NCBI GenBank assembly: GCA_021730205.1
Contig: CP072533.1
Coordinates: 1-64,000 of the forward strand
Length of the DNA stretch: 64,000 nt
Direction of reading: 5' to 3'
Source of the DNA: Candidatus Ruthia sp. Cpac_8_S14
GTDB lineage: Bacteria; Pseudomonadota; Gammaproteobacteria; PS1; Pseudothioglobaceae
The notes beneath the pieces were generated by a model that was not told where the DNA came from, did no database searches, and worked only from the letters and a program-made list of their open reading frames with translations. Within the stretch, counting starts at the first letter, position 1. Each line of letters begins with the position of its first letter. Both the position numbers and the translations under genes were made by a program. Of the stretch, positions 21,509 through 25,640 are shown in pieces.

Positions 21509-22534
21509 TTAATCTAATTGACAGATGATGTTATCAACTGGCTTTGGCAAGCCAATATTTAACTGAGATAAGGGTTTGAACCCACCCTTGACATCTGGGC
21601 AGTGAATGAGTATTGGGTGAATCAGCAAGTGGTAGTGAGTGAAACTATGTTTAAAAATAGTTAGGCCTTTTTCTATTAAAGCCGATGGGTGAAAATCAGT
21701 TATGGTTTGCTGAATATCTTTCTCATTGTCTGCACATTCTACAAGGCTCCACAATCCACCCCAAATACCCTTGTTTGGGCGTTTCTGTAAGTAGATATTG
21801 TGTTTGTCGTCTCTAAAAATTAGCATGGCAATTGAGCGGGTGGGTTTGTTCTTTTTTGGTTTTGAGTTGGGATATTGATTTTGGGTGTTGGTTTGTTGTG
21901 ACAAACAATCGGATTGGATTGGACACTGCTCACAATCTGGCTTACGTTGAGTACATAAGGTTGCACCTAGATCCATGATGGCTTGTGTATAGTCAGCGTT
22001 ACGTTCATTAGGCGTGTGATATCTAGCCAAGTGCCATAGCTCTTTAAGTGTTTTGCTTTGCCCATAATGGCCCTTAACTTGATGGTATCTTGAGAGTACG
22101 CGTTTAACATTGCCATCGAGTATGGCGTGGTTTTGATTAAAGCTAATGGCTAAAATAGCACCTGCTGTGGATTCGCCCACACCAGGCAAGTCAATCACCT
22201 GTTTAAACTCAGTTGGAAAATTGCCTTGGTATTGGTTCATGATGATATTGGCAGTTGTGTGTAGGTTTCTTGCTCTGGCGTAATACCCCAAACCTGCCCA
22301 TTGAGCGAATATTTCATCTTCAGAGGCGTTGGATAAGGAAGCCAATGTGGGGAAATACTGAATAAAATTATTAAAATAATCAATAACCGTTGTTACTTGA
22401 GTTTGTTGCAGCATGACTTCACTCAGCCAGACATGATAAGGGTTGTTTGGTATGTCTTGTGCTGCTTGCCAAGGCAGGCAGTGACGACCAAACTGGTCAA
22501 ACCACTTCAGTAGTGGCTTTGAGATTGAGCGCAC
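21509..22534 (-). CDS. mutY: A/G-specific adenine DNA glycosylase
   Basis: MutY removes adenine mispaired with 8-oxoguanine, preventing G-to-T mutations. The 341-residue protein looks complete: catalytic Glu region in VMLQQTQV near 41, helix-hairpin-helix LPGVGESTAG near 117, the catalytic Asp in AILDGNVKRVLSRY near 138, four cysteines of the [4Fe-4S] cluster (C-X6-C-X2-C-X5-C near 193-209), and a C-terminal NUDIX-like domain (IYLQKRPNKGIWGGLW near 249) that reads 8-oxoG. It overlaps the metA stop by one base. Confidence 0.95.
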   Translation of the reverse strand: MRSISKPLLKWFDQFGRHCLPWQAAQDIPNNPYHVWLSEVMLQQTQVTTVIDYFNNFIQYFPTLASLSNASEDEIFAQWAGLGYYARARNLHTTANIIMNQYQGNFPTEFKQVIDLPGVGESTAGAILAISFNQNHAILDGNVKRVLSRYHQVKGHYGQSKTLKELWHLARYHTPNERNADYTQAIMDLGATLCTQRKPDCEQCPIQSDCLSQQTNTQNQYPNSKPKKNKPTRSIAMLIFRDDKHNIYLQKRPNKGIWGGLWSLVECADNEKDIQQTITDFHPSALIEKGLTIFKHSFTHYHLLIHPILIHCPDVKGGFKPLSQLNIGLPKPVDNIICQLD

Positions 22535-23589
22535 TATTTTAAATTAAGCGGGTCATGTGGATTAATACCATCCATAAATGGCTTGTTAATGTCTTCATGA
22601 GTCGTTTGGTAAACACAGCCAATCCAGTTGTTGATGATGACATTAGTGACGTTGCCCCAAGTGTTATTTAAGGTTCTGCTAATTAGTTGTTCAGGGAAGT
22701 TTGTAATGCTAAGTTCTTTGGACAAAAGCTTGGTTTTATACTCATTGAGAATGGCTTTGCTTTGTTCGGTTAAATAATGTTTAGGAAAGGGCGGATAGTC
22801 ACCTCGTGTTTTTTCTAAATAGGCAATAATATCGCGCTTGTATTCTTTTAATAGGCTAATAGTGTCGTATTCTGGATGACCTTGGAAAAACACAATCCTT
22901 AATAAATCTTCACTAACGCCTAAGTGTATACCGATTTTGCTTTCAACCAAAATTTTAACCCCAGCAGCATCAAATTGCGCTTTTGAAATTTCATTAAAGC
23001 GGGAATGTGGCACATCAAAGCGTGTATTCACGCCATTCATTAAAGGATGTTGTCGGTCTAGCATTTGGTGTGGAAATACACCCCAACATTTTTCACCAAT
23101 AGCTTGGCGTTTTTGTCCATATCTAAATTCTAAGACGGCGTGCGTTGCCAAACATGAGCATAGTGTTGAAGTAACGTGATCATATGACCAATCAACCACT
23201 TCTTTTAACTCTTTATAGAAAGGTGCTTTTTGCAAATCTGCTTGTTCAACGTGCGCGCCTGTAATAATCAATGCATCAAGCCCTTGAGCTTTAATGTTTG
23301 CGAAAGTTTGATAATGTTGTTTGACATGCTTGCTTGTTTTTTCACCTCGCTTAATTGAGGATAATGTAAATGGATGCAGATAAAATTGTGCAATTTGATT
23401 AGAATGTCCAACAAGGCGAAAAAACTGGCGCTCGGTTGCTTCAAGTGCGGCATCTGGCATCATGTTTAATAAGCCAATGTGCAATTCACGAATGGCTTGG
23501 TTGTTTGCTCTGTCTTTTGATAGGATGGTTTCGCCCTCATCTTTAAGGCGTACAAAAGAAGGCAAGTTTGAATGTGCAATTAGTGGCAT
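22534..23589 (-). CDS. metA: Homoserine O-acyltransferase, MetA family
   Basis: MetA acylates homoserine, the first committed step to methionine. The 351-residue protein has the catalytic cysteine in STLCSCLATHAV near 145, the GEKCWGVF segment, the catalytic His in FFQGHPEYD near 236 and the following Glu. E. coli MetA has GAPLG at the acyl-CoA pocket; here the segment is GAHVE, with Glu in the position that in characterised MetA proteins favours acetyl-CoA over succinyl-CoA. Substrate choice is therefore inferred. It overlaps mutY and the upstream ATPase gene by one base each. Confidence 0.88.
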   Translation of the reverse strand: MPLIAHSNLPSFVRLKDEGETILSKDRANNQAIRELHIGLLNMMPDAALEATERQFFRLVGHSNQIAQFYLHPFTLSSIKRGEKTSKHVKQHYQTFANIKAQGLDALIITGAHVEQADLQKAPFYKELKEVVDWSYDHVTSTLCSCLATHAVLEFRYGQKRQAIGEKCWGVFPHQMLDRQHPLMNGVNTRFDVPHSRFNEISKAQFDAAGVKILVESKIGIHLGVSEDLLRIVFFQGHPEYDTISLLKEYKRDIIAYLEKTRGDYPPFPKHYLTEQSKAILNEYKTKLLSKELSITNFPEQLISRTLNNTWGNVTNVIINNWIGCVYQTTHEDINKPFMDGINPHDPLNLK

Positions 23590-24425
23590 TAGTTCATGGC
23601 TCCATAAATAAGCTCAAAAACCTCATCGGCATTTTTGCACTGATACAAATCTTCACTGTCGATGGTATAACCATATTTTTTAGCAATGACTTCATATTTT
23701 GGCTTGCGGTGTTCAAGTAGGCGTGGAAAGACCCAGCGTACAAATTCGTTTGGGTTGATTTGTGCGACATAAATTAGCTGATTTTTTTGCAAGTAGATGT
23801 CTAATTGCTGTTTCAGAAGATCAGCCTGATAATACAAAGGCTTTGGATGTGTTTGTGCGCGTTCAATCAAAGCGGTTTCGTTAGTTTTACTGGCTCTAAT
23901 GTAGAGAATCACAGTGTTGTCAGCCAGAGTTTGATATACTTGATCATTGTCTAATTCACATAGGCTACCACCTGCATCATTAATAAAATGATTAAACCCT
24001 TGTGTCTTGGCTTTTTGTATAAATTGTGGCACGTCAAGCATGGCTTTGGTTTCTGCGTTTAAGTGCATCGTTTGACGGGCAACAAAAGTATCAATGGGCG
24101 TGCCACCTAGCTCAGGATTGCCAGCCTTGCCTAAAAAAGCAGACACTGATGATAAATTATCAAAGGTAATATGATTTTGGATGCTTATAGAGTCGTTATC
24201 CACCAGATCTTTAAGCCACTTGTCTTGTCTGACGTGGTTTTTGATGTTGTCTAAAATTTTATCATTCAAATATTCAGCGCCAATGCGATAGTCACCAGAA
24301 TAATGAAAGTATTTATCCTGACGGCTAAGGAGTTTTGCTAGGTGTGTTTTTCCCACACCTGACATGCCTAATAGGGTTAGACACTTGTGATTAGAGTTTT
24401 TGAATTCTCTGGCTGATAATTTCAT
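23589..24425 (-). CDS. Uncharacterised P-loop ATPase or kinase coupled to metA
   Basis: The 278-residue protein has a Walker A motif GMSGVGKTHLAK near 19-30 in a short N-terminal strand-loop-helix, followed by HYSGDYRIGAEYL near 41 and a central segment FINDAGGSLCELD near 165 that could carry the Walker B aspartate. The C-terminal half is helical with no known motif. The P-loop style resembles small-molecule kinases such as shikimate kinase, but there is no other match to them. The stop overlaps the metA start by one base, and alaC lies 27 bases upstream, so it is translated with amino-acid genes. Function unknown. Confidence 0.75.
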   Translation of the reverse strand: MKLSAREFKNSNHKCLTLLGMSGVGKTHLAKLLSRQDKYFHYSGDYRIGAEYLNDKILDNIKNHVRQDKWLKDLVDNDSISIQNHITFDNLSSVSAFLGKAGNPELGGTPIDTFVARQTMHLNAETKAMLDVPQFIQKAKTQGFNHFINDAGGSLCELDNDQVYQTLADNTVILYIRASKTNETALIERAQTHPKPLYYQADLLKQQLDIYLQKNQLIYVAQINPNEFVRWVFPRLLEHRKPKYEVIAKKYGYTIDSEDLYQCKNADEVFELIYGAMN

Positions 24426-24452: not shown

Positions 24453-25640
24453 TTATAGCAAACCATCTTGTTTAAACATCTCTCGAATGCCTCGAATTGC
24501 TTGACGGGTTCGGTGTTCGTTTTCGATCAGACCAAAACGCACGTATTGATCGCCATAACTACCAAATCCAATACCGGGCGACACGCCAACTTTTGCAATT
24601 TTTAGTAGTTTTTTGGTAAATTCTAGCGAGCCCATGTGTTGATAAAATTCAGGAATTTTTGCCCAAACAAACATTGTGGCTTTGGGCGGTGTAACCACCC
24701 AACCAATTGAGTCCAAACCGCCACACAACACATCACGCCTGTCTTGGTACATATTAGATATTTCTTTCACACAGCTTTGGTCGCCTTTTAGCGCCTCAAT
24801 AGCGGCGACTTGAATGGGGGTGAACATACCATAATCTAGGTAAGATTTAATTTTGGTAAGTGCACTTACCAAGGTTGGGTTGCCCACCATAAACCCCACG
24901 CGCCAACCAGGCATGTTATAGCTTTTTGACAACGAGAAAAATTCAACAGCAATTTCTTTAGCGTCTTCTACTTGTAGAATACTGGGCGCTACGTAGCCAT
25001 CAAATACAATATCTGCATAGGCCAAATCCTGCACCACCCAAATTTCATATTCTTTGGCAATTTTGATGATCTTTTCAAAAAAATCCAATTCAGCGCATTG
25101 CGTGGTTGGATTAGACGGATAATTTAAAACCAGCATCTTTGGTTTTGGCCAAGTGTTTTTAATAGAGCGTTCTAATTCTTCTAAGAAGTCATTATCTGGA
25201 CCACAAGGCACATGCTGAATATCTGCGCCTGCAATCACAAACCCATATGGATGAATAGGATAAGCAGGATTAGGCACTAATACCGTATCGCCACCGCCCA
25301 CAACAGCTTGTGCTAAATTAGACAGCCCTTCTTTAGAACCAATGGTAACAATGGCCTCAGTTTCTGGGTCAATATCAACATCAAAGCGTCTTTTATACCA
25401 ATTGGCAATTGCTTTACGTAACTGTGGAATACCACGAGAAGTAGAATAGCGGTGTGTGTCTTTACGTCGCGCTGTCTCTACCAGTTTTTCAACAATATGA
25501 TCAGGTGTTGGCTGGTCAGGATTACCCATACCAAAGTCAATAATATCTTCACCACGAGCACGTGCCTTAGCCTTTAGCTCGTTAGTAACTGAAAAAACAT
25601 AAGCGGGTAATCTTTTTATTCGTGGGAAGTCATCATTCAT
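24453..25640 (-). CDS. alaC: Class I/II aminotransferase, AlaC-like
   Basis: A PLP-dependent fold-type I aminotransferase, most like AlaC, which makes alanine from pyruvate and glutamate. The 395-residue protein has the start pattern [20 protein letters not shown] near 38, NYPSNPTTQ near 175, the PLP lysine in [15 protein letters not shown] near 239 and the substrate carboxylate-binding arginine in YVRFGL near 368. In many relatives this gene precedes homoserine dehydrogenase; here the downstream genes are the P-loop ATPase and metA. The exact amino-acid specificity cannot be read from sequence. Confidence 0.88.

Follow-up and report, generated by a model that had tools for sequence, protein, structure and literature searches.

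Among the gaps in bacterial amino acid pathways that lack an explanation, that of the homoserine kinase ThrB is one of the most frequent; the enzyme was a low-confidence assignment in 20% of 148 test organisms (PMC7311316). In Desulfovibrio, this gap is filled by DvMF_0971 (model NF040667), a P-loop kinase related to shikimate kinase (PMC5764234), and a putative alternative homoserine kinase, BT2402 (TIGR02535), has been reported to be absent from Phaeobacter and Dinoroseobacter (PMC7311316). The homoserine kinase step is a published gap in the symbionts of clams (PMC7826175). It was also described as a novel gap in Phaeobacter inhibens and Dinoroseobacter shibae (PMC5764234; PMC7311316), which a 2024 paper still treated as open (PMC10809761), and an E. 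coli thrB mutant is not complemented by the AroK of Phaeobacter (Price et al., PMC5764234). Genomes with a ThrB gap tend to be labelled threonine auxotrophs, and this skews models of symbiosis and cross-feeding.

Here, we analysed a window of 64,000 nucleotides from Candidatus Ruthia sp. Cpac_8_S14, in which a P-loop protein is encoded directly upstream of metA (Table 1). Very probably, this protein has the activity of a homoserine kinase (EC 2.7.1.39), with homoserine as the substrate that we infer, and belongs to a new family that resembles shikimate kinase and takes the place of ThrB. It also seems likely that the family was recruited from the shikimate kinase fold separately from the Desulfovibrio enzyme, and that it displaced ThrB in sulfur-oxidising Gammaproteobacteria and in Rhodobacterales, being co-translated with MetA. 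In the open reading frame list of the window, the gene starts with ATG and runs without interruption over 278 codons, and a search of its 1.18 Mb genome found a single copy. Read on the minus strand, its stop codon TAA (23591-23589) and the ATG of metA overlap by one base, 23589, and alaC precedes the kinase gene on that strand at a distance of 27 bp. The initial annotation, which had described an intact gene for a 278-residue protein with a kinase-like Walker A, following alaC and overlapping metA by one base, was correct on each of these points.

Table 1. Features of the kinase and metA locus, in coordinates of the window.
Feature	Position	Strand	Basis or remark
Candidate homoserine kinase, shikimate-kinase-like P-loop protein, 278 aa	23589..24425	-	Open reading frame; family, predicted fold, replacement of thrB
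metA, homoserine O-acyltransferase, the other consumer of homoserine	22534..23589	-	NF003776 524 bits, PF04204 3e-86
Base common to kinase stop and metA start (TAATG)	23589..23589	-	Read from the sequence
alaC, alanine transaminase	24453..25640	-	NF006033 730 bits; linkage only in the window's own family
mutY-like gene, next after metA in the same-strand run	21509..22534	-	Named by eye from the sequence
Walker A / P-loop GMSGVGKT, residues 20-27	24345..24368	-	Invariant or near-invariant over 85 members; aligns with the shikimate kinase P-loop
Asp45 of HYSGDYRIG, invariant	24291..24293	-	Equivalent in the alignment to the second Asp of D-S-D in shikimate kinase
Motif FINDAGGSLCE, residues 147-157	23955..23987	-	Opposite the GGG motif in alignments with shikimate kinase
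LID-like segment LIERAQTHPKPLYY, residues 186-199	23829..23870	-	Opposite the RPLL/RPLFY segment in alignments with shikimate kinase

In a profile search, the kinase protein reached the cut-off of no Pfam or NCBIfam model and only P-loop fragments were matched, which bears out the earlier statement that the rest of the protein fits no recognised family. The shikimate kinase models stayed below their cut-offs, with 12.7 bits for PF01202 (cut-off 22.1) and 11.2 bits for NF010552 (cut-off 186), and the GHMP-type ThrB model TIGR00191 (cut-off 168 bits) was absent among the NCBIfam matches. The top NCBIfam match, at about 25-26 bits, was to the Desulfovibrio homoserine kinase model NF040667; at 26.2 bits against a cut-off of 197 bits, and confined to residues 14-72 at the P-loop end, it is a lead and no evidence. 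Judged by this curated model, the metA-linked kinase is outside the Desulfovibrio homoserine kinase family. Readings of the protein as a member of the ABC, AAA, STAND or Rab groups were rejected, as they had only P-loop matches below cut-off. A defence ATPase was also discarded (best PADLOC match of 20 bits; no match for the Paracoccus protein), and so was a mobile or phage origin, since neither the 50,697 phage records searched nor viral contigs contained a match. We found no paper naming the family in the open-access literature searched; it may have been recognised elsewhere, for example in bioRxiv or the Fitness Browser.

A structure model built from a 54-sequence alignment (mean pLDDT 94.2, pTM 0.90) predicts a shikimate-kinase-like fold, that of a small-molecule kinase, in answer to the structure prediction that the initial annotation had called for. 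Foldseek ranks E. coli shikimate kinase first. In a second comparison of the predicted model, shikimate kinases or their domains fill the top thirty rows (one row being a designed protein) at Z 13.1 to 10.9, and other kinases start only at Z about 10. Residues G23, G25, K26, D45, D150, G153, S154, E157, R189, P194-K195-P196 and R240 are invariant over 85 members of the family, those from R189 to P196 belonging to the LID-like segment, and R117 is conserved in 83 of the 85. Weak sequence profile alignments match the P-loop and the Asp of strand 2 with the Campylobacter-type shikimate kinase 1via, and the GG and PKPLYY segments with AroK of the same genome. By eye, R240-x3-Y244 can be likened to the R-x3-Y of the arginine that shikimate kinase has close to its C-terminus.

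These residues suggest how the enzyme might work. The P-loop (K26, T27) would bind Mg-ATP, and the invariant Asp45 together with R117, R189, K195 and R240 would hold homoserine, over which the LID, carrying R189 and K195, would close. The second Asp of the D-S-D motif is substrate-binding or catalytic in shikimate kinase, and Asp45 may have the same role, placed near the acceptor hydroxyl. The gamma-phosphate would then be passed to the side-chain hydroxyl of homoserine, and ThrC would convert the resulting O-phosphohomoserine into threonine. Coupling to metA could serve to have one message specify both enzymes between which the homoserine pool is divided.

In the Ruthia genome, hom (G000:C1 846681-847958), thrC and cysM are consecutive genes, and thrB is not among them. 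The model for the APH-type ThrB (TIGR00938, cut-off 256 bits) has no match in this genome, and that for the GHMP type (TIGR00191) matches only ispE. Since hom and thrC are present and ThrB of either proteobacterial type is not, the step from homoserine to the substrate of threonine synthase is without a recognised enzyme. AroK is encoded by a separate gene, which adjoins those for aspartokinase and IlvE. The initial annotation had proposed that a loss of thrB or hom in the same genomes would support a role in this pathway; thrB is indeed absent from nearly all carriers of the kinase, with thrC kept, and hom is retained in the Ruthia genome.

The relation between the kinase and ThrB was followed in an even sample of 299 Pseudomonadota genomes, ThrB being defined as a match to TIGR00938 or TIGR00191 at E 1e-25 or better. 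The kinase family was found in 18 genomes, TIGR00938 in 201 and TIGR00191 in 35, and the three sets do not overlap; one further kinase match, of 23.6 bits, was left out. ThrB is thus present in none of the 18 carriers versus 236 of the 281 non-carriers (Fisher p = 8e-14, with the relatedness of the genomes ignored). This value overstates independence, because the genomes are related and the 18 carriers fall in five families. Among 79 chosen genomes, 45 carry the kinase; 42 of these are without ThrB, and all 45 have thrC over the cut-off. Every carrier checked for thrC keeps threonine synthase.

The three chosen carriers with a ThrB match are G050, G055 and G357. In G050, the match (L147, G050:C26, 2456-3022, plus strand) covers only residues 146-306, and the N-terminal half was not found upstream. 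An APH-type ThrB-like protein in G055 (L146, G055:C1, 2396-3304, minus strand) has lost the catalytic H-x-D-x4-N motif, since it reads LGGVPRAR where intact proteins read H(A/G)DLFRDN, and it is likely a remnant or a repurposed ThrB. G357 (Methylomicrobium sp. wino1; L159 and L161) combines a metA-linked kinase with an apparently intact ThrB and is the sole such genome examined. As to the non-carriers, five genomes (G037, G040, G052, G056 and G083) have neither the kinase nor ThrB nor thrC over the cut-off, as expected for threonine auxotrophs. Another four (G019, G039, G125 and G133) have thrC with both ThrB and the kinase absent at threshold, which may be due to gaps in the assemblies or to yet another, unrecognised homoserine kinase. 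Two further non-carriers lacking ThrB, G018 and G027, are represented by incomplete assemblies.

The kinase gene is present in 41 of the 58 genomes of relatives searched, and 38 of its positions are at least 97% identical across the 85 diverse members aligned, so that it is no chance open reading frame; this conservation also rules out a decaying gene. The gene defines a conserved family, with members in Gammaproteobacteria and in Alphaproteobacteria of the Paracoccus type. When named genomes were scanned, at least 554 places matched, and the 80 best of these include Thioglobus/SUP05, Bathymodiolus symbionts, Thiotrichales, Methylococcales, Chromatiales (Allochromatium, Thiocystis, Lamprocystis), Ectothiorhodospira and Thiodiazotropha. 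A Candidatus Ruthturnera record is 90% identical to the window protein, and homologues in Paracoccus and Pseudorhodobacter are 35-37% identical; searches of plasmids added only Paracoccus-type relatives. Most carriers among the sampled Alphaproteobacteria belong to a single family (f67), which is probably Rhodobacteraceae, since its kinases share 55-71% identity with that of Paracoccus. In one close relative (L045, G010:C1, 2508-3324, minus strand), the kinase is broken by eight small gaps; as these are crowded within about 140 bases, they look more like an assembly error than decay, and this copy was left out of the argument.

Persistent linkage to metA, which the initial annotation had proposed to survey, was found at nearly every locus examined, in two classes. 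All gammaproteobacterial loci retrieved by a similarity search, and the Paracoccus-type loci too, have metA as the next gene after the kinase, in the same orientation. In the Paracoccus record, genes labelled 'ATPase' and 'homoserine O-succinyltransferase' share one base, so that the same arrangement occurs in a second class, though the MetA proteins of the window and of Paracoccus are only about 30% identical. By contrast, the linkage to alaC, along with the run to mutY and ribF, is confined to the window's own family. The earlier claim that synthesis of the protein is tied to amino-acid genes therefore holds broadly for metA, but for alaC in that family only. The exceptions to metA linkage were two among 17 further genomes of the even sample (G324 and G158). 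G324 has the kinase and thrC, without a PF04204 protein (MetA) and without ThrB; in a tree of the family, the kinase of G324 is placed together with that of G050, which is linked to metA, so that G324 has probably lost the linkage but not the kinase. In G158, the kinase is apart from metA, which is on another contig. A helicase-like gene (L140, G158:C15, 3556-4935, minus strand) lies directly downstream of this kinase, in the expected place of metA.

A position directly upstream of metA, often coupled to it, at almost all loci of two classes could also befit an accessory of MetA, that is, an ATPase or kinase serving only the methionine branch and acting, for instance, on a post-homoserine intermediate or on MetA itself. 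We consider this improbable, as G324 keeps the gene in the absence of MetA and G158 has it away from metA, while four genomes (G063, G071, G093 and G121) have metA and ThrB and are devoid of the kinase. Because of G324 and these four genomes, we conclude that the kinase gene tracks the missing thrB and not metA. An accessory of MetA would, moreover, leave unexplained why ThrB is absent in carriers that keep ThrC. The initial annotation had guessed at a small-molecule kinase for homoserine or a methionine precursor; the metA linkage, the loss of thrB and the predicted fold favour homoserine, and the methionine branch as such is not indicated.

It is equally improbable, in our opinion, that some other protein provides the homoserine kinase activity and that the metA-linked gene marks the same lineages merely by descent. 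Related genomes do have many genes in common, and G019, G125 and G133, with thrC and neither a known ThrB nor the metA-linked kinase, indicate that further unknown homoserine kinases may exist. Nevertheless, the pattern recurs in two classes and several families, thrB remnants have decayed in two carriers, and the gene is physically joined to that of the other homoserine-using enzyme and encodes a predicted small-molecule-kinase fold. The fitness data for Phaeobacter, from which no homoserine kinase candidate emerged, count against the new assignment (Price et al., PMC5764234), as do the apparently intact ThrB of G357 and the four genomes that have thrC with neither gene at threshold. If Phaeobacter carries the gene, a polar insertion in it would create a need for methionine as well as threonine, and the gene may have escaped notice for that reason. 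A kinase that phosphorylates another hydroxyl compound, shikimate or a nucleotide for example, might be imagined from the nearest folds, which are those of shikimate kinase and then of nucleotide kinases. It appears very improbable, since the genome has its own AroK and both the linkage and the phylogenetic pattern point to homoserine.

If the metA-linked protein is indeed a homoserine kinase, one gene would close both published gaps, in clam symbionts and in Phaeobacter and Dinoroseobacter. It would complete threonine synthesis in the symbionts of vesicomyid clams and Bathymodiolus, in SUP05-type marine bacteria and in Paracoccus-type Alphaproteobacteria, and probably in Roseobacter-type Alphaproteobacteria as well. 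Both exits of the homoserine branch point would then come from one operon, and annotation pipelines would gain a name for a protein that is so far only an 'ATPase'.

The reaction proposed here is the one catalysed by the GHMP-type (TIGR00191) and APH-type (TIGR00938) ThrB enzymes. Neither model matches the kinase protein, their folds are unrelated to it, and both types are almost always missing from genomes with the metA-linked family. TIGR02535 resembles it in the proposed role of standing in for ThrB, but is phosphoglycerate-mutase-like and no P-loop kinase. AroK is similar in its predicted fold (Z 13.1, 163 residues aligned, rmsd 3.3), its P-loop, the Asp after strand 2, the GG motif and a LID with (R/K)PL. 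However, the metA-linked kinase is about 100 residues longer, the identity in the structural alignment is 12-21%, and AroK proper is encoded elsewhere in the same genome. The Desulfovibrio homoserine kinase shares the proposed reaction, and is likewise a P-loop kinase related to shikimate kinase that stands in for ThrB. Only the P-loop region matches, though, with a model of 163 positions against 278 aa here, and the metA-linked kinase differs from the Desulfovibrio enzyme by a large insert, a C-terminal extension and its linkage to metA.
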